A stretch of 64,000 nucleotides of DNA, from contig OX637291.1 of NCBI GenBank assembly GCA_951799445.1, positions 436,501 to 500,500 on the forward strand. The letters are read 5' to 3'. Both the position numbers and the translations under genes were made by a program. The stretch comes from Pseudisothecium myosuroides (taxonomy: Eukaryota; Streptophyta; Bryopsida; Hypnales; Lembophyllaceae). The notes below the pieces were generated by a model that saw nothing but the letters and a program-made list of their open reading frames with translations, did no database searches and was not told the DNA's origin. Below are positions 3,290-56,615 of the stretch, in pieces; within the stretch, counting starts at the first letter, position 1; every line of letters starts with the position of its first letter.

Positions 3290-3465
3290 TTATATATATG
3301 TGGAAAGCTTTGAATCATCTCATTTTGATTTATGAGTCAAACGTTACAAGGATTTTTAGTTTGCAAGCAGTTATGGATTGTCTATTCTAAAATAAACTTT
3401 AAAGTTGTTTATTTCACTCAATTTTCAATTTTTTTCAAAAAAAATAAAATTGTAAGATGTAGATT
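3290..3465. repeat. AT-rich dispersed repeat, left half, interrupted by the 21-kb insertion
   Basis: Reads through CATTTTGATTTATGAGTCAA, TTATGGATTGTCTATTCTAA and AAAGTTGTTTATTTCACTCA, and ends TGTAGATT exactly where the 24-bp inverted repeat of the large element begins. The complement of 25680-25870 follows the same order with substitutions, ending AATGTAGATT, and the complement of 28735-28860 is another relative. The right half of the interrupted copy resumes at 24612. Confidence 0.7.
3462..3465. other. Left target-site duplication GATT
   Basis: GATT immediately precedes the left inverted repeat and is matched by GATT immediately after the right one (24612-24615). The uninterrupted relative (complement near 25682-25690) has a single GATT at this point. 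Confidence 0.65.
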
Positions 3466-3489
3466 ATGCCATATTTAACTACTTCTGGA
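3466..3489 (+). repeat. Left 24-bp terminal inverted repeat
   Basis: Begins ATGCCATATT and ends CTTCTGGA. It is the exact reverse complement of 24588-24611. Confidence 0.85.
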
Positions 3490-3509
3490 CTTTCAATAGT
3501 CCAGAAGTA
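3480..3509. repeat. Terminal hairpin at the left end of the element
   Basis: TACTTCTGGACT (3480-3491) pairs perfectly with AGTCCAGAAGTA (3498-3509) across a 6-nt loop. It overlaps the inner half of the left inverted repeat. The right end has only a weaker, interrupted equivalent (AGTCCAGAATT near 24567 followed by AATTCCAGAAGTA), so the two ends are structurally asymmetric. Confidence 0.75.
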
Positions 3510-4814
3510 AAGAGGCGGTGAAATCCCCTGATGTTTTTCTATGGATCTGGAGATCTCCTGAAATAGGAACGCTTTGCATGCATCCAATTCAGCACCCACA
3601 AGTATGTCGGGGAGTGCTTCATGTGCTTGGAAATGAAAGAAATCGTGTAGTTGTAACATAGCGGATCCGTGGTAGAGTTCACATGATTGTATTGGGAGAT
3701 CTGTGGACCGGGTTTCCGTAGTTTAGGCATCCAATTTACAGCACAACTGAAGTCTCAGAACCTATCGAGAGATCCCCCGATGACCACCACTTGTTGCAAA
3801 CATGGCCCCCATCCCATATTAATCCCTCAGTGAGCGCTGATCTTCACATAATTCTATCGGGAGATCCCCTGACGGGGGTGTAGAATATGAGTCGGCTTCA
3901 CTGACAATCTTGGTGTTGAAGTGGGGTACAACTTGATTCCTGTGCTAAAATGCAAGTGATATCGGAGTTCATCAGACAAGAATGATTCACAATAAGGCAC
4001 GAGGGGGGCGATTCTTTCAAAGATATATGGTATCCCGAGAGTTCAAAGGAAGTACACACAAGTGGATTTGAAATTCAAACATCAGTTGACAATTACCAAA
4101 TGAGCAATTGCTCTTGGGAATAAGGAGTCCGGTTCTAGGATTCACCGGGAGATCTTCCGACGGACTGCTAACATAGTGGAGCTAAGGTAGTCAGGATATG
4201 ACGAAGTGACAGGGGCATATCACAGTAACTTACTCACAGTGACATTTGAAGAACTGTAGACCACTGAGTCACAGGTGCTCAGACGTTCAACATACATCTG
4301 AAGATGTATAACGGCTAAGTAAACATAATATTCCATCCGAAATAATGACAGTAGTTTCAGTTTGTGAAAGAACATCAAGGTTCTTTCACTGCAAAAAATA
4401 GTAAAATTCGTATTTAGTTGAATGTCCGCTATATAATTGTGAAGATGCAAAACCTAGAAGACTAGAATTCCAACAGTGTAACTGTGAGAGAAAAGAAATG
4501 CATTATTCAGACTCATTTGAGTGCATGTGTGACCCGAGCAATGTATTCTGTTCCGGACACAAACATAAACCACTTCCATTTCAGGAGACGAGAGGAAGAA
4601 AGAGATCCCGCGCTTCTGCTATCAAGTCGTTGCCCCCGTGCCGCACGCAAAGAATAGAAATCATAAACATATTAATATATTCATACAGATTTATTTTACA
4701 TATACAAGTCACAAAAAGCAGCTCTGAAAAACTAATCGAAGAACAGTCCTACTAACTCAACGGACTGTACTTCGAAACCCCCACTTGCGGTTGCGCTTAC
4801 TGGATGTAGAATGC
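3510..4814. repeat. Intergenic end region with four degenerate palindromes
   Basis: Imperfect members of the 18-bp palindrome family lie at 3549-3558 (core GGAGATCTCC), 3764-3781, 3856-3873 and 4144-4161. No supported gene: the open frames on both strands are short. A canonical poly(A) signal for the minus-strand gene (AATAAA on the minus strand) lies near 4688-4693, about 250 bp past its stop. Confidence 0.55.
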
Positions 4815-4914
4815 GTCGTGCGATATCACGATGGCAGTCGCGCCCCGCAGAATGCATCGTGACATCTCACAATTGCCGCGACGACCGACACAGTGCGTCG
4901 GGAGTTCCCACGAT
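4815..4914. repeat. 41-bp tandem repeat, each unit carrying an 18-bp palindrome
   Basis: Palindromes start at 4815, 4856 and 4897, exactly 41 bp apart: GTCGTGCGATATCACGAT, ATCGTGACATCTCACAAT and GTCGGGAGTTCCCACGAT. Spacers share GGCAGT, GCG and CCCCG phrases. The array ends about 30 bp beyond the stop codon of the minus-strand transposase-like gene. Confidence 0.8.
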
Positions 4915-4944
4915 GGCAGTAGCGACCCCGGACTAGGCACTCAA

Positions 4945-7900
4945 TCATGGGTCCACCACGTTTGCCCGATTCAAATTCACTAAGGCAGCCTCCCTACTCT
5001 TCTGAGGAATCGTCCGTGATTTTTGATCCACTCTCCTGGACCAATTCGCATACACTGCAGCACCCGCGTCCACCCAGGTGGGGGGACTTTTTTCAACGAC
5101 CCATTTACCGTACCAGCAATTCCGATAAAGCAATTCCAGCCTCGTTTCGGAGTTATCGGGTCGCCAGTATTGAAGCAAGAACTTCCCGTTATTTACATCT
5201 CCTTCCACTCTGCATACAGTAGACAATGCTCTTCCCTGCCAAACAGCACATGATTCCGGGACTTCCGGTCTGACAAGTACCCAACAGCCTGGTCGTATGT
5301 CTAGCCATGGATTAAAGCTTTCCCTTGGCGCTTCATTTGCAGGGCCGCAGTAAGGCTCCGGCTCCTCTTCTTCCTCCGGAATCACGTCCATGGGATTCAC
5401 CGTCGATCCTGGGCGAGGGACTCCATTACGCGCCACCCTCCAATCGTGTTGTGGCCAAAAGCCTTCCACCAACTCCGGAGGACACTCGGGTAATGGTTCC
5501 TTCAGCTCATCGAGAACACACTTCCAGTAATCCACGTATGGACCGAACGCAGTTGCAAATCCTTCGCATCTAGAAATACCGTATTGCCAGTACTGAATGT
5601 ATTTCTCGAGTCCTACCAGCATGAAACCCTTGTTCAAGGTAGCTTTCCGCGCCGCTTCCCTTGCCTTCTCTTGATTTCCATGCGGTATCGGAACCTTGCT
5701 GCCCCACATGGGCTTAAACGGAACAGGCTTAGGACAGCCGTGAGGGAGCATGGGCCGACCATTGCTGTCTGTCTTCCAAATGCGTTCAGAAGGTTTCTTC
5801 GACGGCAACCAGTTCGAATCAACTGCTGACCTTTTGAAGTTCATGACGGGGACCCCATCAGTGTCCACGTAGAACTTGAACAGGTGCATCTCCCCCAATC
5901 CAATTAATTTTTCCCCGCGATCGCATTGGTAACCCTCCACGAACGACTTGAAATCCCCCACCTCCTGTATGAACTCCGAAATAAATGACAGTTCTTGGGA
6001 CTGCATGAAGGCTTTCATGAGGTCAGCGACGACAAAAGTGTTCTTGGTCTTCAGGGCCTTGGAAAGGTGGCTGAAATATGCATCGATGTCCTCGTGAGTG
6101 TGTCCGACTAGTAGAAACCCAACCTGAATTTCCTTGAAGACACCTCGTGCAGTGAGCAAGGATAAGAACGCCATCAGATATTTGTTCTTGTTATCCTTGG
6201 CAGAGTTGTCAAGCTGAAGATATAAATTTTCAGGAAGAGGGGTACTTCCAACCCGAGCTCCAGGTTCGGTGAGGGTTAGGCTGTCCATACATCTAGACTT
6301 TCCTCTAAGCAGTGCCTCGAACAATGAGTTAGCCGGCGGATATGGAAAGAGGTCGCCTGCCTCTCGAATAGGTGGACCCTCCAGCCGGCGCAACAACCTC
6401 GCCAAAGACGAAATGGTGAAGTTGGAGTCCGCCGGCCAGCAAGATGGAGCATAATGGGCGTAAGCACCGTCACCATGGCCATGAGCTACCATTCCAGTAA
6501 CGCTCATCGGAAGCTACCCCAGACCGGCTGTGGCCTTTGTTGTCACTCGGAGTTTGGGTAGAGCCGTCTTGGATGTATCCATCTTGTCGTGAATTATACA
6601 TAAAATTCTTCGAGGATCTCGTTTGGATTCCTCACGCCAAGACGCATACAAACGACGGCAAGAAGCTTGGTGATTCAGATGATGAGTCCGCTGCTTCACG
6701 AACTCCACGTACTCGGGGCTTCCTTTCGGAGACTTCAGAATAAACTGCTGTAGGTCGTTGCACGTAGTACATTTTGCAAACGAACTTCCGACAGGCTTAA
6801 TGGAGACGTTGTTGAAGTTCTCCCGCTTGAGTCTACTAATAGTCGACTGGCTCACGGGCGGCAGACCGTGGTCGGCATTCAACTGCACATCCAGAATCGG
6901 TACGCTTAAGCATCGATACGAGCGAAGGGGAAGGAATGCAAATGACAAGCAATGCACCAGAACAGTGATCGTGATATCTCACGATCATTGATCTTGTCGG
7001 GAGATCTCACGATCAATAAAGCAGTGACAGGAGATAAGGGGCACTACCTCGTTGGCGTCTGCTCGGACTCGTTTCCAATTTCTTCCGGGAGGAAGGAATT
7101 TTAGAGTGTCCGTTCTTCCGTTCCCGATGCCGCGCATTTGGTGGGGCATTTGATCAGCATTCTCGTCAATAATGGCTTTCATAGTCCCAGCGACCTGAAC
7201 AGTCCGAGCCCGCGGGCGCTTAACCCCTGTGTTTCCGTGCGTCCCTGATACGACGCCGTCGTTGTACATCTCGATGTAACTGTGGTAAGTGGACTTCGGG
7301 ATGCCGTGAATTATGTACCACGCCTTGCCACAAACATCAACTCCCTCTAGCGTGACGTATTTCCGCTTCCGCTCCCCGTACCTTTCGTGTAGTTGTCCTC
7401 CCACTCCAATCCCATATTCACGGCGCTCGTCAAACGACTTCAAGTAGTACTTCTGCCTTACTAACAGCGTGAACTCCTGGTTATAATGCTGACAACACAG
7501 ACGTCTGCAGCACTTCTCCGAGCTGACTTTCCAAATCTCCTCGTCTGCCGTTTTGCGGGAGTACTGCGATTCCTTCAGTTCCAGATTGGGTTTGCGAACT
7601 ATAAACCGATATGGTGCTTTCATTCTACCTCCGAGGTAAGCGAGAGGGTCGTCCATATCGGGAATGGCGGCAAAATGATCCACTGTCTCCTTCAACGAAC
7701 GACCGTTGGGAAACCAGCACTCCGAAATTGGCCACCTGTCGTGAGACATTATGGCTTCGGTGTCACCCACAAAAACATCGAGGACTGTCACACCTAGGAA
7801 ACCTTCACCAAGTGTCTCCTCTTGGAAATGATCCTCCGGACTCCAGTAAATGATACGACCCGAGGAAACGAGGAGTCCGTCGGCGTCCTTCCGATGCACA

Positions 7901-8328
7901 TCAAGTCCAAACCAGGCTCCTTGACGAATATACGGACATGGATCCATCGGGGGATCCCCCGACGCTCTAACAACGTCGGCGGCTCTCCACAACACTACAT
8001 TCTCTTGAACATCCTCTAATGTGTTCATACCCCTCTGACAAGGAAAGCATTTCAAATCCTGGAATTCTAATTTGACAGAATGAGGTCGCACCAGAATGTA
8101 AATCCAAGGCTCAACAGGTATGGGCACACCCAGCCACTGGCCCTGGGGACGAACCTCTTTAACGATTCCTGATCCAACTTCACCGAATCCAGGCACAAAC
8201 AGCTTAACCCAATCACCATTCACAAACGCTTCACATCCACCGGTGGAATCCTGTGATTCACCCTCTACATGCGTTCCGTCCACATACGGAACTATCGCGT
8301 CAGCAGCAGACTCACAGAATGAATCCAT
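4945..8328 (-). CDS. DUF7869-type transposase-like protein with an in-frame TAG
   Basis: Exon 1 runs from a true ATG at 8328 to 7048. A 165-bp phase-0 intron (7047-6883, GT-AG) contains two palindromes, and exon 2 continues from 6882 to 4945. One TAG (6514-6516) interrupts exon 2 in frame, inside conserved-looking sequence. In the N-terminal part a Cys cluster CCRRLCCQHY lies at residues 273-282, followed by a GVDVCGKAWYIIHGI segment (about 329-343). Exon 2 carries LCIIHDKMDTSK, then QLDNSAKDNKN and GHTHEDIDAYFSH. These resemble the conserved acidic blocks of DUF7869 proteins, probably an RNase H-like transposase fold (inference). The C-terminus is rich in WRPDNSETRL-type sequence. It is the best candidate for the element's mobilising enzyme. 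The TAG means pseudogene, readthrough, or an unseen splice. One palindrome (7946-7963) lies in the coding sequence as Ser-Gly-Asp-Pro. Confidence 0.75.
6883..7047 (-). other. Predicted 165-bp intron with two palindromes
   Basis: On the minus strand the donor is GAG/GTAGTG (7048/7047) and the acceptor GTGCAG/TTGAAT (6883/6882). Both are phase 0, joining ...RADANE to LNADHGL.... Palindromes lie at 6968-6985 (ATCGTGATATCTCACGAT, near perfect) and 6996-7013. Without splicing, a TGA at 6985-6987 stops the frame. Confidence 0.7.
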
Positions 8329-8488
8329 TGTCAGAGTGAGCTCTATCGAATCCCGTGGACGAGATTAAAACGATCCGTAAAACCTGTACATCATACATTC
8401 AAGGAGTTAGGCATGTCTACAGAAGAGCGCTGCATTCATGGCATTGTAACCTCACGACATGAAGGACATAAGCATCAACGTCTGTACA

Positions 8489-9167
8489 GTCGTGGGAACT
8501 CACGATCACACGGCAACGCAACATGAACAAGTGAATCTAGTTACTGTCAACAAGAAGTTCGAAAGCCCAGACGCGATAGTGCGATCTCAAGAAGGCCGTC
8601 CCAGAACCACTGGGAAGAAGCCAAGGCATCCAGGAAAACGTCGCAGAAGTTTAGAAGACATTAACCAAAGAACGTTCAGTACATCGTGGGATCCCACGAC
8701 ACTGTTGGCACTTAATCACTTAAACCAAAGATCGCGGTATTCCAAGATCCTCCTAAGGGATCACATAGACCGCTACAGAAATATAAATGAAGTACTGGAT
8801 CAAACTGAATCACTCTGATGAGTCCCCGACATATTATCAATCAATCGTGGGATCCCACGAGTTCGGTATCCTGTAAAATCCGGAAGAGTGTTTGTGAACC
8901 CCCCCAAGTAGGAGAACCTGGTGCCAACCGAAAATGTGATCGTGAGATCCCACGATGCTTATACAAGATCGACGAGGAGTATGACGGTCATCGAAAAGTA
9001 AGGCACCTAGACGTACACCAGGAAGGCCACAGCCAAGGTTCAATCGATCGTGGGATCCCACGACGAAATGATAGAACATCCCTCGACTACCAGACCGCGA
9101 TATCTCTATACTCGAAGACTGAGAGGTCTCGCCCACGCTCAATAAGCGGAGATCGTGGGATCCCACG
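8489..9167. repeat. Six-palindrome cluster upstream of the transposase-like gene
   Basis: 18-bp palindromes at 8489, 8683, 8844, 8939, 9047 and 9150; ATCGTGGGATCCCACGAT at 9150 is perfect. Centre spacings are 194, 161, 95, 108 and 103 bp, with spacers that do not look alike. The cluster starts about 160 bp upstream of the ATG at 8328, where promoter or operator sites of that gene would lie. Open frames through the cluster exist only because the GGATCC form of the palindrome has no stop in any frame. Confidence 0.85.
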
Positions 9168-10480
9168 ATGCTTACGTATGTTGGATATATACACGTATTC
9201 TACTGTCGTAGACTAACGTATCTACAGATGATCGTGAAATTAGGTTTCCTGTCACCGGTTTCATGACATTCGACACTCTATAACTATTCTCAGTTACTGT
9301 ACAAAAATTCTCTACTTTTAAAGTGGATTTTGTTGTAATTCAGACTCCTGAACCTCCATGGGTACAATAAGAAACGTTCTTAGAAGTAGTTGAATTTGAT
9401 GGCTGGGTTTTCCTCATGTAAGTTCGCCTAATTCCTAGCGCAACCTAATTTCACTACTTTGTGAAGACGTTCTGACCGGTTGTCATCCACGTACAAGGTT
9501 CTCATATCAACTTGCCCTCAGGGCAGTGCCGTTCCGCGATTCAAAAGGAACCTCGGTGTCACCACAACATGGTGATCCCTTAAGCACGTGAGTTTTTCGC
9601 AAAATGAGACCAATGCGCGAAGAAAATTATCGCAGACTCCGTTTCACTTTCAATCTACGACATACTCAGTTTGTGACAGAGTGCAGTGGCGTCAATTCGA
9701 CTACAAAATCCTCGACATTGGGAATCGCATAACACTTGCAAGGGATGCATTCTTACCTTGCAGCAACTGGCTCGGTCAGAACTTCGTGCGCCTCCACGCC
9801 CACTCTGTCGCCAACGCCGGCAGACACCCACTCGCCACTCCGCAGCCTACTCCGCGTGTTCACGTGTGCAGACAAAAAGAGCAAGCTCCAGGTTCTTTTC
9901 GGGTTATGAACCAGGTGGCTGGTTCGAATTCTTCAGCTCTGAATTCCCGCCGCGAATTTTGAAATCACCAAGCGATCCTTGATTTCGAATGTTGGATGCG
10001 TTCTTGAATGTCGTGCCACAATCAACAACGGCCTGGGGGTACGTGCGGTCCTTCACTTCGGAAGTTGATTGCATTCTCGAATTCCGCGCATCTCTGACTA
10101 CAAGGAGGGAGGGCGTGAGGCTCTTGACTTTCTGACTGGAACTTCGCAAATCCAGGCTTCACTGAAATTCCGATTCTTCACTGACATTTTGAAATTCGCC
10201 GCATTCAAGGATGGTATCGTTGCACCGTTTTCTAGGAGTCAATGATGCTTTGACCAAAGCGGATCAAACTCTGAAGACTTTCACTTGACAGAATGTCACA
10301 CGCTTCCCCGATCAATACTCGGAATTCTTCCCCTACACGACCTGATTATACGTATCCTACAGAAACGAACTGTACCAAATCTCGTGAACCCAAAAGCTTG
10401 AGCACCTGAAACATGTGGAACACCTCACTTACAAAAAGAATCAACAAAAAGTTTGAACTCCCGAATGTTCATATTTGTTA
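9168..10480. other. Intergenic inside the element, no gene recognised
   Basis: Moderate GC and no palindromes. Several GAATTC or GAATTCC phrases occur at 9927-10090 without clear periodicity. Open frames (for example 9588-9962 plus) show no motif and no splice-supported extension. Confidence 0.35.
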
Positions 10481-10497
10481 TTTTCTATTCCAATGAA

Positions 10498-10735
10498 TGC
10501 AATCTTAGGGTCTAGGGTCCACAATCATAGGGTCTACAGTCCACGGTCATAGGGTTTAGGGTACATGTTGTAGTGTATTGTTCACGGTTTCAAGGTCATG
10601 GTTCTTGGTTTCAGGGTTCAGGGTTTCAGGGTTTAATAGGGTTTAGGGTATACAATGGCAGCGCTTTACATTAACGTTTTCAGGGTCTGCAGTTCATGGT
10701 TTACGGCTTTTAGGGTTTAGGGTATTATGAAAAAT
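10498..10735 (+). repeat. Degenerate interstitial telomere-like tract
   Basis: Repeated TAGGGTTTAGGG, GGGTTCAGGG and GGGTCTACAG variants, often seven bases apart, derived from the plant telomere unit TTTAGGG. Perfect units occur near 10620-10650 and 10710-10725. Confidence 0.7.
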
Positions 10736-10981
10736 GAAAATGACGCTGATTATTTGTTTCCAATTTTTTCCTCAATTAAGTTTACGTCATCTCAGACTGG
10801 GAACATATAAACTTAAAATTCAATCTAACTCAATATTGCTAATTAAAAATGTCAGTTAATAGATTGATTTCATATATAATTCTTGTTATGTAGTACAACA
10901 TCCTATGGTTTAATATGGGACTTTACGGATTAAACAATGATTGACACAATTTTTATTTCATCTACGAATTTTTAAATAAAG

Positions 10982-11142
10982 CACCAGGGGCTTTTTTGCG
11001 TTTCCCTCTCTCATTTTTTCCTGCGTAAACGGCAATCCATGACTTCTCGTTGTGTCACAATCCGTTGACACAATGAAAAGTCATAAGATTGTTGTTTACA
11101 TAGGGGAAAGTGAGAGAGGAAAACGCAAAAAAGCCCCTTGTG
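10982..11142. mobile_element. CACTA-like foldback MITE of 161 bp
   Basis: The two halves are reverse complements over nearly the full length, giving one long imperfect hairpin with its centre near 11062. The ends read CACCAGGGGCTTTTTTGCG and, on the opposite strand, CACAAGGGGCTTTTTTGCG. AAG flanks both sides (10979-10981 and 11143-11145). A CAC terminus and 3-bp duplication fit a CACTA-type non-autonomous element (established feature of that superfamily; assignment is inference). Confidence 0.7.
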
Positions 11143-11430: not shown

Positions 11431-12610
11431 CAATCTCCACCGATGTGAAACAAAAAATCGGGAATGAAATGCATGATGGCTTGAAACGGCTTAAATCATA
11501 TTTAAAAAGTCATGAAATTTCATACATGCATGCATAAAATTTGATTTAGAAAAATGTAATTGCTCCAACCTTAAATTCCACCACTATTTTCTAGTCTTGC
11601 CCGTTGAAAAATTCTAATTCACATGAAAATAAAAAAATTGGGAATGAAACGGGCCCTGCCATTGAACTATGACTTCATTTTAAAAATGTCATGGAATTTC
11701 ACACGTGCATGCATAAAATTCTACTATGAAAGTTGGAATTGCTCTCAGGATTTAGATTCCACCACTATATTCACTTCTTGCCCCTTGCAAAATTCTAATT
11801 CACGTGAAGAAAAAAAAATTGGGAATGAAACAGTTAGGCCCTGCCATGGAATGGCTTCATTTTAAAAACGTCATGGATGGTTCATACATGCATGCATAAA
11901 ATTCTATCGTGGAAGTTGGAATTGCTCTCAGGATTTAGATTCCACCACTATTTTTACTTCTTGCCCGTTGAAAAATCCATCTTAACGTGAATTAAAATAA
12001 ATGGGGAATAAAAATATTGGGCCCTGCCATGAAATGGCTTCATTTTAAAAATGTCATGGATGGTTCATACATGCATGCATAAAATTCTATTGTGGAAGTT
12101 GGAATTGCTCTTAGGATTTAGATTCCACCACTATAATTATTCACTTCTTGCCCATTGCAAAATTCTAATTCACGTGAAGTAAAAAAAATTGGGAATGCAA
12201 CGGGCCCTCCCATGGAATGGCTTCATTTTTAAATTGTCATGGATGGTTCATACATGCATGCATAAAATTCTATCGTGGAAGTTGGAATTGCTCTCAGGAT
12301 TTAGATTCCACCACTATTTTTACTTCTTGCCCGTTGAAAAATCCATCTTAACGTGAATTAAAATAAATGGGGAATAAAAATATTGGGCCCTGCCATGAAA
12401 TGGCTTCATTTTGAAAATGTCATGGATGGTTCATACATGCATGCATAAAATTCTATTGTTGGAGTTGGAATTCCTCTTAGGATTTAGATTCCACCACTAT
12501 AATTATTTACTTCTTGCCCATTGCAAAATTCTAATTCACGTGAAGTAAAAAAAATTGGGAATGAAACGGGCCCTCCCATGGAATGGTTTCGTTTTAAAAA
12601 TGTCTGGCAA
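11430..12610 (+). repeat. Tandem array, about 180-187 bp units, 6-7 copies
   Basis: Each unit contains GGGAATGAAACGGGCCCTGCC or a variant (near 11460, 11640, 11820, 12002, 12191, 12368 and 12556), then a TCATTTTAAAAATGTCATGG phrase, CATACATGCATGCATAAAAT, TTGGAATTGCTCTCAGGATT and TAGATTCCACCACTAT. Units alternate between AATGAAAC and AATAAAAATATT forms (12002 and 12368), suggesting a later duplication of two-unit blocks. The spacing is satellite-like. Confidence 0.85.
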
Positions 12611-13812: not shown

Positions 13813-14429
13813 TAAAATAGTATAACTAGGTTCCCTTATTTCAACAAAGTTACTTTACAAGCCATCAAAGTAAATAAACGTTTCTACAATTATTTTTATT
13901 TGTAGACATGGAGTTTCGAGAGTTCCAATAGCAACAATACTTAAATAACAAATAGTGCATTCTTATAGAGAAACAAAAAAAATGTATGTGGTAATTATCG
14001 AATGTCACGAAATTAGTGAGGTGCAAGTGTGCGACCTAATTTCAGCATTTTGTGTAATGAGTGATTATTTAGCTTAAGACTTCTATTCAAGCCCTCCTCA
14101 TGATGTCAGTAATCATGAGGACGGTGGGCAGTCATGACCTCCGCCGTCTTGCACCTGACAGCGCCATGTCAGCATTTTTCCTCGACGGTTTCCTCTCCTC
14201 CTGGTTTCCTTTCCTCTTCACGATGTCTGCTTGCAGTGCTTTTCTCCCGACGTCGTGTGCTTCTCCGTTCTCCGTTTTGCTCAGTCGTGCGCTTCTCCGC
14301 CTTCCTTGTGCATTCATTCTCAGTTCCTGCAGTCCGTGAGTTTGGGTCAATTTCTAAAGGTTTGCATTTGGAGTGAGTTTGGTTGTTTGGAGGTTCTCTG
14401 TTTGGTTCAACATTTGTGCGCGGAGCTGA
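13813..14429 (+). promoter_or_regulatory. Probable promoter/5' region of the ParB-like/FCP1-like gene
   Basis: AT-rich DNA changes to CT-rich sequence at about 14170-14340 (repeated TTCCTCTCCTCC and TTCTCC phrases), typical of plant 5' leaders. The first supported coding exon follows at about 14430. I could not fix a transcription start, TATA box or initiating ATG; upstream short exons are possible. Confidence 0.35.
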
Positions 14430-17400
14430 GTGCGTCGGGGGACATCCAAGGAGCGTGTTCAAATTTTGCTGGCGGAGTCTGTGGACGTGCGCGGAGAACG
14501 ACACTGCTATCTCGTGGTGGAGTGTGCGGAGCATTTCTTGGCGGAGGCGGTGCGCAAGCTTTCAGATCCAGTGCGCGAGAAGGACAAGGTGTTGGATTTC
14601 ACCCGGCTCATCCAACAGGTTAGTTTGTCATAGTCAAGCCTCCAAAGCAGCATTTTGATTTTGTAGTTTTGACTCCATCTGTAAGGTTGATTTACTTCTT
14701 TGTTGTGGATTTCTGATTGCATAGAGCTGCGCGTTTGCTGTGGAGTTCAGCTTCTAGGCTTGGAAAGAATTGATGATCCCATTCAAGCTTGTAGATTGCA
14801 TCATTCTAGTACATGGATACAATGAATGTTTAGCACTCGCCTTCCTTGCAGCTGTAGGCTCTCCTCACGCATTGTAGTTGTCGGTTCATATGAACTGTAG
14901 ACCCTAAAATGCTAAATAACCTTGATGTAGTTCACGAACTAGAGTTCAATGTGTATGGACTGCTGTGAGTGTTTGAATTGAAGCAAAGTGAAGTAAGGAA
15001 TGGGAATGTTGCTCCCAAAGAGGAATGGAGCGAAGAGTTCATTGTATATTATTTAGTTAGACAGTACTCGTTTGTGAATGATATTAGGAACATGGTTTGT
15101 GCAGGGATTTTATGACTATGATCAGACACGCTTGTTTTCTGTGCGATAGGCTACTTAGTCCGTCGCTTTAGAATGATTTAAGTTTACCTTCTCTTCAATT
15201 AAATTCACTTTGCTAGTCATGAAGAAACAAGTTAGGAGTTTGTGATTCTCAGTGGATGATTGAAGCTACAATTTCTTTTGCATTTGAATTTCATGCCACA
15301 GTCTTTCGAAGAGCGGAAGGGCATTTCTGTAGTAGCTGAAAACAAGGCCGGACCCGTGCAAGCGGAAGCTACGATGGCAGCAGCTCCATCCCAGCGTACA
15401 GCAGACCTCCCAGTTTGGAAGGACCCGTAAGTTACTTTGAACTATATTCTCATTACTTTCCGTTTCTTGCTTGCAATGTCTACGTTATAAACAATACCAA
15501 TAATTAGGGTATGGCTATTTGCAATTGCATTGGTACGCACTTTGCTGAAAACGAGGGTAGTAGAGCCTCTGTCATGGTGGCTGTTATAAACATGGCCGAG
15601 AAATACGGTAGTACATATGCCGAGAAGAACACACGGTAATGAGTACGTGACTCTGTCACCGCAGATAGTGACCCTAAAACCGTGCATCGTGGGATCCCAC
15701 GACAGGGCAGTCCCTGTGTAGATTCGAGCATCGTAGGATCCCTGACTTGAAACCCTAGCCGCCCACCACTGCGCGGCCACACGAGTTTTAGGGTTTGTGG
15801 CCCATCGTGGGATCCCCCGATGATAAGATGTGAAGACGCAATCTAAACCCAGAGCACAAGTTAGGCACAGACCAGGCAATGGATTAGTAACCCATCGTGG
15901 GATCCCCCGATGGAGGATAGTAAGGACCGCGTCTGACCCAGACTTAACAATTAGAAGGCCACCTACATAGAGCATTCAAGTACTAAACCGTCGTGGGAAA
16001 TCACGATGAGAGAGTCTAGCGTGGGTAGAGAAATTGAGATGAAGGCGCGTTAATAAATAGCGCTGATTATGTGAACAATCAATCGTGGGATCCCACGACA
16101 GACAGTAGTTTCACAGATCATCACCGATCACCTTCTAAGATATTCCAATATCCATTCTATGTTATTTGGTGCCGTCGTCATATGCCGGGACGCCTTCAGT
16201 TAGTGAGTTGAGATGCAGTAACCACCTGCCCACTACTGTCCGTGAATGTAACCGATCGTGATATCCCACGACAACGGTAATTTGTGAAACCAGATCATCA
16301 AAATGATCACGAAACCATTCCTTCGCTTTCATAACATCCGTCGTGGGATCCCACGACTAAGGATAAAAATTAAAGTTAGAACGAGAATAATATCGCACCA
16401 CCATCTGCTCTATCGGACAATGTAGAAACTAACATCTCTTTCTACCATGCTGCAGTGAAATGCAAGTCGACGAAGGTCCAGAAGAACTGACACCAAGGAA
16501 GCTTGGTACCTTCATCGACTGCTACATTACGTCTTTGGAGTACACAGGTCCACATCCACCACAAGCCTTTTTCCGATGCGACGAGCAGATTACGCATTGG
16601 GGAATCGCCTGGAAAGCAGAGAGTGACGGCTCCGCCACTATTCTTCCCACGCTGGTGAATGGGACAATGGGGCACCTAACTGCCGGACTGAAGGTACTAG
16701 AAATGAAGGGGCTTGACGACGACACAGCGCTCCTAGTTGTAGAGGAGAAGGTTCCCCTTTCCGGGGAGATCATAACATTTGGGCTGATCCTTGACTACGC
16801 GAAGTTCAGCCTCACTCTTTGCGAGTCTGTGACTGCAAGATCACATCTGATGTGCAAGGACACGTCTAAGCCTCGGTGGAAGCCTAAGGAGCTGAAGAAC
16901 CAGTGGGACATAATCCTGGAAGACTTAAGAGATACAAACGCTCCCCCGCAAGCCGTGACAGCGGTTACTCCTACACCGTCCCCCAAAAAGAAGACCAGGA
17001 AGAGGAAGTCTGCAGTTGGAGCTCCCGGGGACGAAGTTGAAGCCGCAGCTGCGACATCCGGAAAGAAGAAAAAACCGGATACCCCGCTTCCGCTTCACAA
17101 GGCTGTGGCTCTAGGGGAGGCAGACGTGAAGAAGATGACACCGAAAGAGATGAATAAGATGAGGACCCTGTACGAGAACTCTTTTGGTGGCCTGTACAAA
17201 TGGGGCAAGAAACCAGTCTGTGACAGCAAAGGAGAGCTCATCCGCGTGCACTACGACTATCTGCACCAGGCACCTGTAGCACTGCTCGTGTACAGGGGAA
17301 TTCAGGCAGAGCGGCTTGATTCGCTGACAAGGAAGGCACGAATCACACCTGATTATGACTCGGAGAACAGAGTCATAACAGTGCTTCCCCTTAAAGCGGG

Positions 17401-20400
17401 ACCTTACGGCCCGGCGAAGGTAGTGTCGTACTATGAGAAGCAAGCGCCGAAAAAGGAGATCTTGGAAAACCCCAAGACGCACTACTACATTATAGGGGGC
17501 CAACACACTGTCCAGGCATTCAAGGACCTGATTAGGCTTAGTGTGATTCCCGAGAAGGACAAGAAGCTCGCCTCCACCTTCAATATTTTACCTGTGTGGA
17601 CGGACAAAGATCACCACGGAGACCTAGTGCACTTCTCGCGGGCGCTGAACCAAGATGTCATCGGCAAACAGAAGGAGCAGAACTTCACGAAGCAGCTGCT
17701 GAACGCAAGAATCAAGTGGCGGAGTATGGGAAGTCCACAGCGAGCAATATTGGGCAGATCGCACTCAGTAGAGTACAATGTAAGAATGCTGCTAGAGTTG
17801 ACATATTTTTTTTGGGGGGTCATTAGAGTGCGCTCTACCTGACCATCGTGGGATCTCCCGATGGTCCTGCACTACATCTCAGACCTTCATTACGTTAGAA
17901 CCTCGTCATCGTGGTATCCCACGACTAAGTCCTGGATTTGCGATAAGGGGTAGTTCTACGTTAGAGTGCAGCCATCGTGATATCCCACGACTTTAACATA
18001 TGAAATACCAGATAGCGCTAGTTTAGTTTTTTGTGCTGGCGGTTCAGTGCGTGGTGTTTTCAAATTGTGCATGTAGAAGATAGTGGCTCATCGTGATATC
18101 TCACGACTGCCTGTTGCCTAAACGACTTCCTCGTGGTAACTGACTGATCGTGGGATCGCACGACTGTTTATTGGACTTCTTGTGTTCACATGGTCTGTCT
18201 ACGGATCGCGTACTGACTGTTACTCCTTTGTTGGGCAGGCGTTTCAGCCGTCGGTGGCAACAATATTTGCGGGAGCAAAGGCGAAAGACATCGCCGAACT
18301 GAGAATCCCTCTACTCTTCCTGGAGAACGACGCTGATGTTGAGAGATGGATCAAGATAGAGGAGAGATTCATGACAGGTCTCCTTCCCGACGCGGCGGGG
18401 CTGGTCGATGTATCGGGGAGTACGGATCGCAAACCGTTTGCGGCAAACGACTTCAAGCCCCTTTACGGACTTAGACCGGAGGACATCAATTTCCTTGCAG
18501 ATCAAGTCGAAGCCCAGGTTATTAGCATGAAGACCTCCGTCGCAAAGTCGAAATCACAGAGAGGTGGAAAACGCATCATCTCTCTTGCAGACGCCGGCGC
18601 CAAAATTTGGTTGGTCAGGGCGATGAAGAACGAACTCTTGTCACACTACAAGGGTCATCTGCTGCTGGCGAGGAGGGTGGAGTACGAGCCTTACCCGGAC
18701 TCTTTGTGGGTCGAGTTTGTGACGGAAAGGAACATTCAGCACGAGGATGTGGAGATGTGGGTCAACAAGGCAATGGAAACCCCTGCTGGAAAGAAGTGGT
18801 TGCAGGATCGGACGAAAAATCTCAACAGGACGTTCGACCCAGCTGACCTTCCGCAGTCGGTGATCCAAATGTGGGAGTCGTACTTCAAGCTGACGGCGGA
18901 GGAAGAATCGGTGCAGGCAAATGCACGTGGTTTTTCAGAGCACTATCTCTTTAAAACCATGGAGGAAAGCAGCTGGGACATCAGCGCCACCTTGGCGGCA
19001 GGGGACGTCATAGCGTGGAGGGGAAAGAAGAAGCAGCACCTCTACATCTGGTTCATGTTCGAGTCAACGTCCTGCGGGTGTCGCGCCAAAATTCTTGAAG
19101 AGCGGAAGTTGAAGAGACTCTTTGATGCTCTGGAGTACTATGATCCGCAGGACCAGACAATCGTAGCCCGCTCTGCCGCCGTTCTCCTTACAGATGCCGA
19201 AGGGTTCCACATGATTGTGGCTCACATAGAGAAACGAAGGATGGAAGTGAAAGCTAGGTTGTGGGACTGGCACGTTGTGAACTACATGGCAGGGCCCGAA
19301 GACTTCTTCCCTCAAGCTCCGGCCGGAGACGGGTACAATGTCTTTGTTGTCTTCATTTTTGGGCACAGCGAAGAGCACGAGCGGCGGACTTGCTTCAAAA
19401 GCTTCTTCCCGGGATTGGACCGCCTGACTCAGGTGTACAAGGCGGAAGATATGCCGGACGACTACCCTTATTGGCGTCGGCAGCAGATGCCGTATCTGGA
19501 GATCAGCAGTGCGTTGATTCTATTCGAAGGACTAGCTTGCACCAACTATGTCTTTGTGAATGTCAACGGGGGTCCGGAGTTCACATATCTGGGCTTGGTA
19601 TGCACTACAACGATTGTCTTTTCTTTTGTTCTTCTGATAATCTCCTTTCGATTTCGGGGATTTGAATGTCACTAATTTCCGGTTGTTGTATTTCAGTATT
19701 CGGAAGGTGGTAAAGTGCTGGAAGTTGTCGATTCAGCGGAAGCTAAGACGTTAAGTCAGGTCTTCGCCAAGCAGATTTGGGACGACAAACATGCGCAGGC
19801 GGCACCCCTTCCTCTTCCGGAGGCCGGACACGAGGACGAGGAAGTTGAGAGTGATGATGACGATGCTGTACTCGAAGACATCACCCAACACAGACCGGGT
19901 TCAGGAACAAGGTCGGTTGAGCACCCTAAGGTTAGTGTGCATTATTTGCTGAACCATTGTGATATCTCCGGACGTTGGGCAGCGTATATCTCTCGCATGC
20001 TAATCTGGGAGGGCAAACTGAGCTCAATTGTGGTGGGATATTGCCTTTCTCGCAGGCGAAATCTCCGACTCCCTCCCCCCGACGAGAGCAGCTGATGGAT
20101 GCGCCAAGTGGAGCAGAGGATGCAGACGATGTTCCCGAAGTTCATTCGGCGCAGGCGGAGCTGGCAGATCTGGCAGAGGAGCATGAGAGTACTCCAGAGC
20201 CGTCACCAGCTGAACGAATTGTAATTCCAATATCCAGCGGGTCGTCAGGCGAAGTGAATTCAGGTATCCAATTAACGGACCCAAGGATATCCAAGAGGAA
20301 GCCGCTTAAGACGCCGGTCAAGGAACCCGACACCGCAATGGATACTGGGAGCACAAAGGCGGCCAAGCGAGCGCGGAAGACAGCACTCAAGAATCGGAAG

Positions 20401-22478
20401 GGGGGGTCCTCCAAGTGGACTCCAAGTAAGTCGTTGGTGCAGCGCAAACAGTCGCTAGCGAAGCCGACTGGGAGTCCCAATCCCGAAGCATCAGTCGTGG
20501 CAGAAGCGCTTCTGACTTGTGCCTTGGGACCGTTACCATCGAGGCCTGTGAAGTCGACTCAGCCGCAACAGGAGGATGCGCAGGCATCTCGTGCTTCAGG
20601 AGCTGACAGACAGCTTCCGGACCTCGACTTATTAACCCTGGAAGACACTCACCGACCAGCATCGAGGGATCCCACGATGACGAACGAGTCACTGGTCAAG
20701 AGCGGGGAGGATGCTGCCGACCTCAGCGAGGGGAGGAATGAGTCGAAGGGGGATGATGACCACCTCGGATCGGGGGATCCCACGACGGGCCATGCATTAC
20801 CTGTGGAGACTGTGTTAGCTGTCTCTCGACGTGGTGCAGGGAGGGATGACCAAGGCCGAACACCGGGACCTGAAGGATCGGGGGATCCCACAATCGTTGA
20901 AGAGTCAGTGGTCTCAATTCATCATGGCGATCCGGCAGAGAGCGAGGGGGGTGAACATCAGGAAGGAGTGGTTGCATTGTCTTCGTCGGGGGATCCCACG
21001 ACTGTGCGAGAGCGATTGCTCCCGCCGATGGGCATCACGGTTGCTGTACTGAACGACACCCTTGTTGACTTGGTCCCCCTGAGTCCCAAACCTGTTCCTG
21101 GAAGGAAGAATAAACCTGTCATAGGGCGGGCGAGGATTGTCGACATTGCTTCACTGGCCTCCAGTGTTCCACTGGAGGTTGCAGGAGAGGTGGTTCCTGA
21201 TGACGGTGAGTGCCATTCTGACGAAGTGCTAGAGGCCATACCTTACGAGGCCGAAGAAATAATGAAGTTCTGTCTTGTTGATCGTATGAGAGCATTTGGT
21301 CATTTACCGAGTCTAAACCACTATGGGAAGAAGCGTCTCGATAACAACAAGGATATTCATTTGGAATCCGTAAGGCGAGCGAACCGTTTCCTTTACAAGC
21401 CCGTCTTTAAATGGATATTTCAGGATGGTCCGCGTGCAGTGTATGATGGAGGGGATCCACCTGATGCAGACGAAGAGTGGGAGGCATTGGAAGGCGGCGT
21501 TAGAGGGAGGAGGGTGGTGGTGGCTTCGAGCGATGACGACCTTGAGCCGGGATCTTTCAGTGGTGACCAGGGGGAAAGAGGACCAGTGAGCGCCGACGAG
21601 AGAGGAAAGGGGCAAATGCTCGTCGAGAGGAGGGGGGAAGGATCAGTGAGCGGTGGCGAGAGGGAAAGAGGACGATTGGGCGACGAAAGGAGGGCGGAAG
21701 GGTCGCCAGCTTGTAGCGTCCGAGCTCCCGCAGGTAACATGCCTACATTATTGTCAATGTACATACGAGATAACGAATCTTGAATTGGCCGGTCACTGAC
21801 TCTGTGCTTCTCTTGTATTCTGCAGTTTTTCGAGTGCCTGCTGAACCGGTGGTGAAGTCGTCGAATCAGGTAGAAAAGCGGCGGTATTATGTGGTCTTCG
21901 ACCTTAATGGAGTTCTTGTTCACAGGTCATTCAATGATTTGAACAGACGCGTCGTAACACTTCGACCGAATGTTGGTCATTTACTTGACTTTGTGCACAG
22001 ACATGCAAACATTGCATTCTGGAGCAGTATGACACCGGCAAATGTGACGAAGGTATTGAATCAAATGCTACCGGGGACGTCTGTTAAGGCGAAGGACGTG
22101 CCTGTTCTCACGCAGGAAGACTGCACAAAGTCGTCCTACAGAGACCCCAAACACCCGGACAGGCCCTACTTCCTCAAGGATCTAAATCATTTCGCCACTA
22201 AGCTGGGTTTGAGGTCAACCGAGAATGTTCTCCTCGTTGATGACGATCCTTTTAAGAACCTCCTGAATGATTGTCATAGCGCCATTTTCCCCCACAAATT
22301 TGATGGGGACTGGAGGGACCAGTACCTTGTGGGGGTGCTCAGTCCTTGGCTTGGAGGTCTGTTTAAGTCACAGGAAGCTGTGCCGGCGTATGTCAAGAAG
22401 CATCCGCTCCACAATGGTCTGCCACCGGCGGTCCCGTTGACCAGACCGGGCTCTGACATTTTGAGGGCAGTAGTTTAG
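14430..22478 (+). CDS. Seven-exon ParB/Srx-like and FCP1-like fusion gene
   Basis: The exons are compatible in phase throughout: about 14430-14620, 15301-15428, 16457-17779, 18239-19597, 19697-19930, 20056-21733 and 21826-22478 (stop). All junctions are GT-AG. The product is about 1,840 residues. Exon 3 has a basic NLS-like KKKTRKRK and HYYIIGGQHTVQAF, resembling the GxxR/GGxHR-type nucleotide-binding motif of ParB/sulfiredoxin folds (tentative). Exon 4 is a long unrecognised domain. Exon 6 is acidic and low-complexity and contains four palindromes. Exon 7 is an FCP1/NLI-type HAD domain with VVFDLNGVLVH, FWSSMTPANV and VLLVDDDPFKN. The usual DxD is DLN, a variant known in some plant and fungal relatives, which puts phosphatase activity in doubt. 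The first exon has an upstream in-frame TGA (14427) and no ATG, so the 5' end is unresolved. Confidence 0.7.
15686..16357. repeat. Eight palindromes in intron 2
   Basis: Copies at 15686, 15730 (17 bp, imperfect), 15804, 15894, 15990, 16082, 16255 and 16340. Most read RTCGTGGGATCCCACGAY or have one change. Spacing is often 85-96 bp with unrelated spacers. The intron (15429-16456, 1,028 bp, phase 2) otherwise lacks recognisable features. It also holds a TTTTAGGGTTTGTGG phrase near 15786. Confidence 0.88.
17845..18164. repeat. Five palindromes in intron 3
   Basis: Copies at 17845, 17908, 17974, 18090 and 18147 within the 459-bp phase-0 intron 17780-18238. Centres alternate between GGATCT, GTATCC, GATATC and GGATCG. 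Spacings are 63, 66, 116 and 57 bp. Confidence 0.88.
20661..21002 (+). repeat. Four in-frame exonic palindromes exactly 108 bp apart
   Basis: Palindromes start at 20661, 20769, 20877 and 20985. Each is read in the same frame as Ser-(Arg/Gly)-Asp-Pro-Thr. The 108-bp period equals 36 codons. The spacers are diverged but partly alike (NESLV versus EESVV after the first and third). The region is the disordered acidic stretch of exon 6. Confidence 0.9.
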
Positions 22479-22506
22479 TTTTGGTTTCTCTTCCTCGACG
22501 GACTTC

Positions 22507-23588
22507 ATCGTGATATCTCACGATCTCCTTTTGGCGTGCATATTATTGCTTGTAGCTTAAAACTCTTGAACATACTGTAAATATTGTAAATGCATTTTCG
22601 AAATACTGGACATTCTTTGTTTGTAGGAGGCATTGATTCTGCCTCGTAGTAAATGTGAAAATAAATTTTTTTCCTAAATGCCTTTGATTAAGATAATTAT
22701 GAGTTTGAAGGGATCACCTCGACCTTGACTATTAATCCGCGTGCATGCACATCTAGAGATCTAATGGTATACCGTGGAAGTGGATTCTATCGGTAGATCG
22801 GACTGTTCTGGGCATTTATCCTTGTCTTTTAAATCTAATGTGAATGCATTTCCGGAGCATGACCCTCACTTAGAATTGTTTTCTTACTCTTGGTTTGCAG
22901 CTTTAATCTAAATTTGGTTCTGAAATTGTTTATCATATTACTCGGAAGAGTGGAATTTTTTGAACACTTCACTAGATTTTAACACTGGGCGTCATCATCT
23001 TGCGCGGCAAGCTTCATCAGGAGATCGCACGATACGACGTGACGTGTGAACATTGAAATGTCGTTTCCGTCCTTGTATTGTCTCGTGATATTGTTTTTGT
23101 ACTTGTAGATGACAGTGAAGTTGTAGTTGTGCTTCTACTGTTTGTTTGGGAGTTCTCCTGCAGTTCCGGTTTGCTGAAGTACGGATTTGAAATTGATAAT
23201 TTTGTCCTGTGTCTTCGGCTTGATCGGAAGATCTCACGATCATTTTCCCTTGCATGGAATTATTAGTCTTAGGCGGATTATGTAATGTCCATTTTTGTTG
23301 CTTCAATCGAATGCAATTGAATTTCTGCTGCGTAACTTCCTTTGCTTGAGTATTTTCGGTCTTCTAGTATGTCACCCTAAACCTTTTTTTGTATTTGACG
23401 CGAATTCTAAATCTGCATCCCTTGTTAGTGCTGTATTCTGGGCTGCAGTGACACCGTAGAAGTATTGCTAATTTCCTTGCACTATGCAGCAAATAAGACA
23501 TTCAGTCGCTGTTCTTCAAATAACTACCCATGCGTATTTTCAATTAGCGGTTCTGTTGTATTGCATATTGGTCGGGGGATCTCACGAT
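22507..23588. repeat. Palindromes between the two FCP1-like loci
   Basis: Copies at 22507-22524 (ATCGTGATATCTCACGAT, 28 bp after the stop codon of the fusion gene), 23016-23033, 23223-23240 and 23571-23588. The last lies just upstream of the acceptor of the degenerate FCP1-like exon. Confidence 0.8.
22658..22665 (+). terminator. Candidate poly(A) signal of the fusion gene
   Basis: AAATAAAT, about 180 bp after the stop at 22478, followed by a T-rich run. Confidence 0.4.
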
Positions 23589-23648
23589 CAATTGACGTCG
23601 TTTCTGTATGTACATGTCTGCGTACTGAGGCTTACTTGGTCTTTGCAG

Positions 23649-24131
23649 AAGGCAATGCTCTTAGTACTAACAGGGGATCTCTGCGTGAAGGGCGGTGTGG
23701 CGGATCTCCCACAGAATATCGAAATTCGGCCCGGCTTCCGTGGTCTTCTCCGACATTTCGTTCATGAAACTCACTGTGGTTTGTGGTCCGCAATGCAACC
23801 TTCAACACTGGCCGCTCTTCTTCGACGTATTCTACCGCCGGAAATTCTGTCAAGGTTTCTATTTTTTGCCGGGTCTGACAATCCACGGAAGAACCAGGTG
23901 TATCCCCATCGTCGTGCAATACTGAAGACTGTCTTGAACATTCCTCGGACGCGCAGGGTACTCTTGAATAACAGTGTTGTAATGCTTGTCCTAGATCCTC
24001 TTGATTGGGAACGTCCGCACTTGCTTCGACCGGCGTTGCATGTGAGGGATGATGTAGGTCCTGTAGAGTTAGATCGTCCGCACATTATAGCACCGCCTTT
24101 TGATTGGTCTTGGGCCCCAAAAAACATGTAG
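23649..24131 (+). pseudogene. Degenerate FCP1-like locus lacking catalytic aspartates
   Basis: An acceptor (TTTGCAG at 23642-23648) opens a 160-residue exon ending at TGA/TAG near 24131. It aligns to the neighbouring FCP1-like domain: IRPGFRGLLRHFVHET matches LRPNVGHLLDFVHRHA, and CGLWSAMQPSTLAALLRRIL matches IAFWSSMTPANVTKVLNQML. The nucleophile motif FDLNGVL is here LVLTGDL, losing the first Asp, and the DDDP motif is not preserved. Upstream exons were not identified. It could be a pseudogene or a pseudophosphatase. It lies within the 21-kb element, with palindromes upstream and downstream. Confidence 0.6.
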
Positions 24132-24530
24132 TTGGAAGTGGACTAGCTGGGTTATATATCACCTGTTTGTTGCATCCAAATGATTATATAAGTGGCGAAT
24201 CCACCTTTTCTATCTGACTGTGATTACACCTTACCAAATGTCTGTAATTGCATTATGTTGCTTCATCCATTCTTTTGTGTTATGTGATACTTTGGGAAGT
24301 ATCTTCTGAGCTCTCCCGATCTGTGATGTCGCATATTAATGCAACCCCGGATACAAATGTACCGCTTACAGCAAATGTCGGAGTTGACATCATCTCAAAT
24401 TCATTGATTTGTTTGAACACTCTATCCCGAAGGAGTATATTTCCTTGCACCGGGAAATCTCCAGACCACTTAGCATCCCAAAGCGATTTAAATCTCCTTT
24501 GAACGGCATTACGGACTCATTGTACATACC

Positions 24531-24549
24531 ATCGGGAAGATCTCCCGAT
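24531..24549. repeat. Right-most palindrome of the element
   Basis: ATCGGGAAGATCTCCCGAT, 19 bp with one inserted base, 39 bp inside the right inverted repeat. The left end also has palindromes close to the terminus. Confidence 0.8.
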
Positions 24550-24587
24550 GGACAGGACCTTCACAAAGTCCAGAATTCCCCGTAAAT

Positions 24588-24611
24588 TCCAGAAGTAGTT
24601 AAATATGGCAT
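24588..24611 (-). repeat. Right 24-bp terminal inverted repeat
   Basis: Begins TCCAGAAG and ends AATATGGCAT. Exact reverse complement of 3466-3489. GATT follows. Confidence 0.85.
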
Positions 24612-27600
24612 GATTTTTTATTACAATATTGCTACCATTGGGATTGGCATTTTCCAATTCCATAATTAAACTCTTAACAATTTAGTTTTGAACCATTCTC
24701 TACTTTTTTCTACATACTATTTTGTTAGGGTATGTTGTACAATTCCAAATAATCTGAAAAATTTCAAGCATGTAGCCAACTTGTCCCAAAGAATGAATTC
24801 AAAGAAGCACAACCACTTTGGAATTTTTTTCATAATAATCTGACCTTGTGAAGTATAGCTACCCGATTTTTTGCAGGGCCCAAAAGGAACTATGCCACTT
24901 CAATTGCTAATATCTTCCAATCTAGACAACTGAAATTAGATTAATTTCTTCCATATATTTACAAACCAAATTACTACAAGATCGTATAGTTACATGTGTC
25001 CAAAATGGATAATTTTCAAAATTTTGGTACTTGTACTAGAAATGGCAATTTTGGAGCATTTTTGGTGAGAACACAATCAAGGAACTTTAGGGGTTAATTT
25101 AACACATCTCAAACCAAATTGCAAGGTTGAGGGGGACTAATGGGAATTCATATTGGGGTTCGGATAGCTTGTAAAAGAAGCTACGCCATAGTAGGTATTT
25201 TGTCTACAGTTCAATTCCTAGTTCATTTAACCCCTAAAGGTCCAAGCATCCAAAATGTAGATGTGCCTTGGTTAACCCCTAAAGTTTAGCTTTTGGAAAA
25301 TAAGGCAACTGTACTTTAGAAGGTGGGTTACAAGGGTATCATATGGCTTTTTGACATCTTATTTATAGCTTTTTAATATTGGACCTCCCCCCTATTTTAG
25401 AGGTCTACAAATTCAATGGTGTAAATAAATAGCCATAAAATTTCACGGTTTGTGAGATATGGCAACTTTGACTTTAGAGTCGAGAAGGTTGACTTGGCAA
25501 TTGCGGATCCAATTTGAAAAGTTTCAAAGTGAGAGGGACATTGATCAAAATGGTTTAGGGTGGATGTTGGAGCCCTTGGTTGTTGGATATATTTGGGGTG
25601 CTTTACATCTAAATTATCAAAATTCTTATCATGGAATTGAAAAATTGACAATCCAAATGATTTAGATACAATAATAAACAATCTACATTCTATATTTCTA
25701 TTTTTTTTCAAAAAATATTGGAAATAGAGTTAAGTAAACAACATCAAAAGTTATTTTAGAGTTTACAATCTATAACTACTCCAAAACAAGAACTCTTTAT
25801 AACTTAAAACTTGCTTATCAAAATGGAATGATATAAATTTTTTTGTATATACATGAATCTTGGAAAAACAATTTCAAATTTTGGTTCTTAAAATAGTGAT
25901 TCAGGGTGGATCATTGCAAGAAAGGGCGTCCAAAAAGCATAGTTACAATATTCAATTTTTTCTTTGGGTTTAAAGTCTTTAAAATTTTAAAAAATTAGGG
26001 TTTAGGGTATAAATGATATGCTTGGGACATGTAAATGAACCATTCAAAAAATTCCATTGGATTCAGAAACATATCAAGATGTGGTAGCCATAGATTTAGG
26101 AGATCAGGGTGTGCTAAAAGGGTCCCTAGTCATTGATATAAAGCCTCCATGTCCATTTCTTCCGGTACTATTTTGTTGCAATTAGATATGAATGAAAAAA
26201 CTTCATTCTTTTTTTTCAAAAAAATGAGTTATCCATTTACTTCAAGTCAAGAATTTTCATCTTTTTGGGGAAGAATTTAAGTTGGTGTTAATGTGTAAAA
26301 AAATGAAGAAAATTCATATTATATAAATATTATGATAAAAAACCCAAAATTAGGGTGTTGATGTATATTATAGTGCACAACATCACGGTCAAACCAAATT
26401 TCGTGTTCACTCTAAAATAAAAAAATAAAAAAATCATGGTTCATATTTAGGGTTCATAAGCCTTAAGCTCTAGAGTTCATATTGCTTTAAAATACCCAAA
26501 TTCACAAATTTGATAAAATTTCTAGTTAGAACTTAAATTATCCTTAATGAGCCTCATTTCATTAGTTGAATTCAAAATAGTTCAAAAAACATCATTTTTA
26601 TGGATGAAATTTACATCAAGAGCAAATAACAAGAAATAGACAAAATATAGTATAACAGGGAGCTACGAACTAAGAATTTTAGGTTATAGGAAAGTCAATA
26701 CTACCATAAGGAAATTGGCAACAATATTCACTAAAGCTATGCTCAAGTACCCTAATAAGACGTGTAGGCCCTAGGAAAATCATCTACAAAATTCAACATG
26801 TTTTGTGCCATTGTCTTTGTTAACCCCTAAAGAACCGGGGGTGTTTTAGAGTAGTCCTTCAATTCTTAACTAGCTCTTGTAACAAGCATAATTCCTCATT
26901 TGTGTGGAATAATTTTGATGATCGCCACCATTGAAATGAAACAAGACTTGTTTAGCTTTCATATAAAAAATAGATCAACAAATTACATATTTTTTGAGAA
27001 AATGCCACCGTTGACAAGAGTGATGAAAGATGTTTGGTTAGGGTTTAGTTTGTATGTATGCTGAAATCCAAATGTTGAAATCGGAATGCTCAAAAGTGAG
27101 GAAGTTTTGAATTTTTGTTCCACATATGTATATCATCATAATATTGGTGTGCAATTTTTTCCAAATCATTTTGAGGTGTAGAAAAAAATATATGAGAATG
27201 TGAAGTAACGGCCAACAATGCCTTTTCCATCCTCAAAAAATTCACCAAAAATTGAACACTCAATCATTTCTCAATTGGATTTAGCCAATGGATTCAGCAA
27301 AGAAAACCATCTAGGTCCTCTTTGTTGCTTATAGATTGTTAATGAGGTTCTTATATCACATTTTTATAAATGTAGTTGTAGAAGCCATATGGTGGCCTTA
27401 TGGTTCTGTAGGGGTTACTGAACTCTGTATACTATTGTATTGTATGTTGTAAACATCAAACAAGAATATGAAATGCTTGAAGAATGGGTCAATTCCAAAA
27501 CTACTAGGGAAAACATTCTTTACGTCTATCTACTCTATGATGTATGTATTTTGAAAACCTAAAGGTTTTGCCAAATCTTTACATATAGCAAAGTCCAATA

Positions 27601-56610: not shown

Positions 56611-56615
56611 CAACA

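Follow-up and report, generated by a model that had tools for sequence, protein, structure and literature searches.

In the portions of the literature available to us, Sola elements are described as encoding DDD transposases, generating 4 bp target-site duplications and carrying terminal inverted repeats of 11-1124 bp; they are known from the moss Physcomitrella, and most are 2-9 kb long, with some exceeding 15 kb (PMC10741241, PMC9033089). Sola1-1_Ec32, from the brown alga Ectocarpus, is 21.5 kb in length and pairs a Sola-1 transposase with an opposite-strand gene for a ParB-like protein of 1104 amino acids (aa) that also has a DNA methyltransferase domain; its authors propose that ParB-like proteins of this sort bind the transposon that encodes them and modify it, and cite references on comparable proteins of green and red algae (PMC12477816). 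In VANDAL21 of Arabidopsis, motifs for the anti-silencing protein VANC21 are reported in the introns of VANC21 and VANB21 and upstream of VANA21, these VANC motifs being 9 bp long, in the same orientation and based upon tandem repeats (PMC5735166, PMC10398659). Our study describes a 21,146 bp element of the moss Pseudisothecium myosuroides. It occupies positions 3466-24611 of a window of 64,000 nucleotides (contig OX637291.1, positions 436,501 to 500,500; all coordinates given here are those of the window).

The boundaries of the element are based upon its inverted ends, its target-site duplications and 12 further full-length copies. The 24 bp terminal inverted repeats (3466-3489 on the forward strand and 24588-24611 on the reverse strand) are exact inverted copies, each present once in the window, and they are flanked by GATT at 3462-3465 and 24612-24615, as the first-pass annotation of this DNA had described. 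That annotation had also held that the flanks rejoin into a single AT-rich repeat with an uninterrupted relative nearby. When the flanks were fused with a single GATT and aligned to the reverse complement of this relative (25610-25870, reverse strand), the alignment crossed the junction with a score of 212, compared to a best score of 65 among 100 shuffles. This indicates that a 21,146 bp insertion broke into an AT-rich repeat and duplicated 4 bp and, alongside the DUF7869 transposase gene examined below, bears out the earlier proposal of an insertion carrying transposon-type genes. The termini read AT...AT, with ends ATGCC, and a left subterminal hairpin (3480-3509) consists of two perfect 12 nt arms in which the inner part of the end motif is repeated inversely.

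The first-pass annotation suggested searching the genome for both ends at about 21 kb spacing and for copies with different 4 bp flanks, and both were found. A search of the genome (388 Mb in 222 contigs) returned 226 exact occurrences of the 24 bp end, and none of the reversed control sequence. Among the first 100 ends listed, 72 could be matched into 36 correctly oriented pairs spanning 20.8-60 kb (<23 kb in 26 of the 36), and no neighbouring ends were <20 kb apart. Twelve of these further copies were read completely and, together with the window copy, form a set of 13 in which the 4 bp duplication was perfect in every case and different in sequence in each. All 12 share the ends and the interior within other flanks, which disposes of the alternative that the 24-mer belongs to the AT-rich host repeat. 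The flanks were also counted in two of three lists of sites (92 and 73 sites, those with G or C at position -10 being left out), after 7 listed sites on small contigs had been dropped. The flanking 4-mers were identical in 35 of 38 end pairs and 76 % A+T, which points to insertion by a 4 bp staggered cut with an AT preference; the fifth flanking base agreed in 10 of the 35, so the duplication is 4 bp long. Pairwise identity among the 13 copies was 0.950-0.991, and values reaching 0.991 suggest recent movement of the family. Taken together, this is almost certainly a family of mobile elements with dozens of near-identical copies. Of the 158 listed ends on eleven large contigs, 42 were on a single contig, the highest count, with 21 on the next; the listed positions on the richest contig extend only to ~16.6 Mb. 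This excess would be accounted for if the contig were a sex chromosome or otherwise non-recombining.

The transposase gene lies on the reverse strand, where the gene model places exon 1, the N-terminal part, at 7048-8328 and exon 2, with the DUF7869 domain and catalytic core, at 4945-6882 (Pfam DUF7869, E=2.5e-43), separated by a 165 bp intron (6883-7047). Structural realignment of Foldseek candidates matched the predicted transposase fold to Mos1, integrases and TnsB, and residues D115/D118, D241, D281 and D283, which are invariant in the aligned rows of 34, are the putative catalytic residues. On the basis of this predicted structure, the DUF7869 protein is very probably a DDE/D-type transposase of RNase-H fold. 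Foldseek alone (E≤0.001) returned no match for this model or for that of the ParB-like protein discussed below, a PDB sequence search with the transposase exon returned none, and a literature search for DUF7869 found nothing. Purifying selection is less clearly indicated for this gene: the ratio of nonsynonymous to synonymous changes (N/S) in exon 1 was 0.59, not below the values of 0.59 and 0.62 obtained for two control frames. The window copy has a premature stop in exon 2 (6514-6516), and the stretch around exon 1 (6988-8364) was open in three of the seven copies first read. DUF7869 frames are abundant in the host genome, and some fall into groups with a common open-frame length (634 or 1000 aa) and scores that are the same or nearly so, which suggests several recently active families of the DUF7869 superfamily in this moss.

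Divergent from the transposase gene, on the forward strand, is an accessory gene with a five-exon model of 1747 aa. Exon 1 (16460-17779) encodes a weakly PH/PTB-like N-terminal part and a ParB/sulfiredoxin-fold domain (17201-17665, model residues 257-411, motif GGQHTVQA); no known domain was found in exon 2 (18239-19597), and exon 3 (19697-19930) is given by the gene model. Exon 4 (20056-21733) is of low complexity, and exon 5 (21826-22478) includes a NIF/CTD-phosphatase domain at ~21888-22361 (Pfam NIF, E=3.3e-14). As judged from substitution ratios, the gene evolves under purifying selection, clear in its first two exons: N/S was 0.32 in exon 1, where the two alternative forward frames gave 0.92 and 1.04 and the reverse frames 0.43-1.24, and 0.39 in exon 2 (over 18230-19600). 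In exon 4 it was 0.71, and constraint there is not clear. The central domain is predicted to adopt a ParB/sulfiredoxin fold, its modelled structure matching the ParB type after structural realignment of Foldseek candidates. A PDB sequence search with the ParB exon found no match, and one with the middle part of the protein found a single chance-level match (TcpK, E 0.18). No NCBIfam match passed the cut-off, and DUF6551 gave weak matches in 2 of 21 ParB-like proteins (best E 0.029), which were not used. Viral contigs scanned with the ParB-like alignment yielded seven pattern matches and no confirmed relative. A second open frame further downstream (23472-24128, forward strand) is weakly phosphatase-like: 41 aa of it are 34 % identical to the NIF domain, and it has no Pfam match. 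We did not accept the two phosphatase-like frames as a clear duplication on this similarity.

Our study further revealed a set of 18 bp palindromes with the consensus ATCGTGGGATCCCACGAT, counted at ≤4 mismatches unless stated otherwise. All 34 in the window (37 at ≤5 mismatches) are inside the element, as had been claimed from the first reading, and the other 42.9 kb contain none at either threshold; five simulated sequences gave 0 each, or 0-2 each at ≤5 mismatches. The 13 copies carry 29-34 palindromes each. Clusters of seven sites are located upstream of the transposase (8489-9169) and 5' of the accessory gene (15686-16357), with five sites in intron 1 of the accessory gene as modelled (17845-18164), four at the left end (3764-4914) and four on the right side (22507-23588). 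Altogether 29 are noncoding, including two in the transposase intron, and five are coding. Four of the latter, in accessory exon 4 (20661-21002), are spaced at exactly 108 bp; three are translated as GDPT and one as RDPT. One further copy of the element is 108 bp longer there. In the 29 noncoding palindromes, 18 of 395 non-CpG columns vary, compared to 286 of 1992 in flanking noncoding sequence, a roughly threefold reduction (p=7e-9) that persists with the window copy excluded (18/395 against 281/1990). The difference has the same direction for every base and is not significant for A. This lower variation indicates that the noncoding palindromes are probably kept by selection while their CpGs decay, the CpG columns varying about equally in palindromes (0.283) and flanks (0.318). 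The coding palindromes are no better kept than the noncoding flanks (0.178 compared to 0.162, all columns). We consider it very likely that the palindromes are functional sites.

With respect to family, the first-pass annotation had left the element unnamed; that part of it can now be extended, as the 4 bp duplication, the DDD-type transposase and the published Sola1 element point to Sola-1. The duplication was seen in 13 of 13 copies and 35 of 38 end pairs, the transposase has the predicted RNase-H fold of a DDD enzyme, and inverted repeats of 24 bp fall within the described range. We therefore regard membership of Sola-1 as likely, an assignment based upon structure and duplication rather than upon sequence comparison to a Sola reference; a search of model libraries brought up none under the name Sola. 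Compared by description, most members of the superfamily are 2-9 kb, whereas this element is 21,146 bp. CACTA/EnSpm elements have a 3 bp duplication and CACTA termini, and are ruled out by the 4 bp duplication and ATGCC ends found here; hAT and Mutator elements, with duplications of 8 bp and 9-11 bp, respectively, are ruled out by the duplication length. Ginger elements, described as beginning and ending in TG...CA with 40-270 bp inverted repeats (PMC10741241), are ruled out by the AT...AT ends and 24 bp repeats.

In the literature available to us, Sola1-1_Ec32 is the closest published relative seen, sharing the size and the position of a ParB-like gene on the strand opposite a Sola-type transposase. 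However, its ParB-like protein has a methyltransferase domain, whereas the 1747 aa protein here ends in a CTD-phosphatase-like domain and has no recognisable methyltransferase; in a search by sequence profiles, 521 aa of its middle part gave no Pfam match at E≤10. The available parts of its description mention no palindromic target sites, and the moss element adds candidates for these. Both the fusion to a phosphatase-like domain and the constraint on the palindromes seem to be new, and no comparable land-plant element was recognised in the literature among the matches listed. VANDALs are Mutator-like. As described, VANDAL21 resembles this element in that a plant DNA transposon encodes a protein, other than its transposase, that recognizes many short intron and upstream motifs, protein binding being our proposal in the moss; the motif is 9 bp and same-orientation there, compared to an 18 bp palindrome here. 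Bacterial ParB, Noc and KorB resemble the present system in the predicted fold of the central domain and in their dispersed palindromic sites, but this system is eukaryotic and no ParA was found in the frames scanned. The bacterial ParB nucleotide-binding signature also differs from the motif GGQHTVEA of the element's ParB-like protein.

We favour the reading of a giant Sola-type transposon with a self-recognising ParB-like protein, to which, as a whole, we assign a probability of roughly 0.55. In this scheme, the DUF7869 transposase would cut at the 24 bp ends and insert the element by a 4 bp staggered cut into AT-rich DNA; cut-and-paste at these ends is its well-supported part. The divergent gene would yield a protein that combines a ParB fold with a CTD-phosphatase-like domain at its C terminus, and this protein would recognize the palindromes in the promoters and introns of the element. 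VANDAL21 has its VANC21 motifs at corresponding positions. We give binding of the palindromes by the ParB-like protein an even chance. Once bound, the protein might mark or cover its own element and control transcription or chromatin, probably against host silencing; we offer this self-marking or anti-silencing role tentatively, and a CTD-phosphatase-like domain would suit transcriptional control. More speculative still is the possibility that the fusion of a ParB fold to an RNA polymerase II CTD phosphatase-like domain loads at the palindromes, spreads, and sets transcription of that family alone, in a ParB/parS-like form of self-recognition.

One observation leaves room for an alternative. 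No perfect-end pairs of <20.4 kb were seen in the 38 and the 36 pairs, two overlapping sets in a survey that covered derivatives with perfect ends, as if interior cis sites were needed. This would be expected if the palindromes were cis sites for the transposase, such that only full-length DNA moves, and the ParB-like gene did something else; the presence of palindromes on both sides of the palindrome-free core fits this as well, and En/Spm has subterminal repeats. However, the promoter and intron sites are up to 5.7 kb (left) and 8.9 kb (right) from the ends and five palindromes are within coding sequence, and we regard this alternative as doubtful. The clustering of palindromes 5' of both genes and in introns is also what sites of a host transcription factor or host silencing factor, used or suffered by the element, might produce, although a count of 34 in the element against none in the rest of the window makes such an origin unlikely.

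A true parS-like partition system, serving an excised or replicating element, would account for the ParB-type predicted fold and the many palindromic sites, but Pfam revealed no ParA-like ATPase in 20 frames scanned within the window copy and all 13 copies read are integrated with duplications; we consider it highly improbable. Least credible is a Polinton-like or other integrated virus, despite the 21 kb length, the several genes, the terminal inverted repeats and a below-cut-off, probably chance match of one frame to baculovirus TLP-20 (E 0.14). Polinton/Maverick elements carry family-B polymerase and capsid-type genes, and no polymerase, capsid or packaging match was found by Pfam in the same 20 frames (E≤1 or 0.5); the 4 bp duplications and DUF7869 as the only integrase-like enzyme found also argue against a virus.

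The interior also includes a 4858 bp AT-rich core without any palindrome, an outcome with a chance of 0.00014 for 34 randomly placed sites. We considered whether the core is a nested element and rejected this, as none of the 13 copies lacks it and none has a deletion of that size; its presence in all 13 indicates that it is at least as old as those copies. Within it is a tandem array (11496-12604) with units of a satellite-like 183 bp; the number of units differs from one element copy to another and accounts for much of their length difference. Other large insertions, each in a single copy, were 524 bp at 4532, 628 bp at 13813 and, inside exon 2 of the transposase gene, 1644 bp at 5427; smaller insertions were 103-121 bp. 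In GC-rich DNA at 14050-14850, 5' of the accessory gene, two of the seven copies first read were ~84 % identical to the other five, compared to ~97 % overall; a replaced promoter and a stretch exchanged with another element are candidate readings. Elsewhere in the window, two related OrsD-type frames (37614-38459 and 56589-57245, the second below the Pfam cut-off) are 70 % identical over 271 bp and probably belong to another mobile family, and a Tet/JBP-type 2OG-dioxygenase-like frame at 49073-50380 is below the Pfam cut-off. TTTAGGG-like repeats were detected, and relatives in liverworts were found.

In summary, the constrained palindromes provide a concrete candidate target for the own-DNA recognition that has been proposed, in the published account as available to us, for the ParB-like proteins of giant algal transposons. 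Element-specific self-recognition could be tested directly with a single protein and a single oligonucleotide and, if true, would mean that a VANC-like answer to host silencing had arisen a second time, independently.

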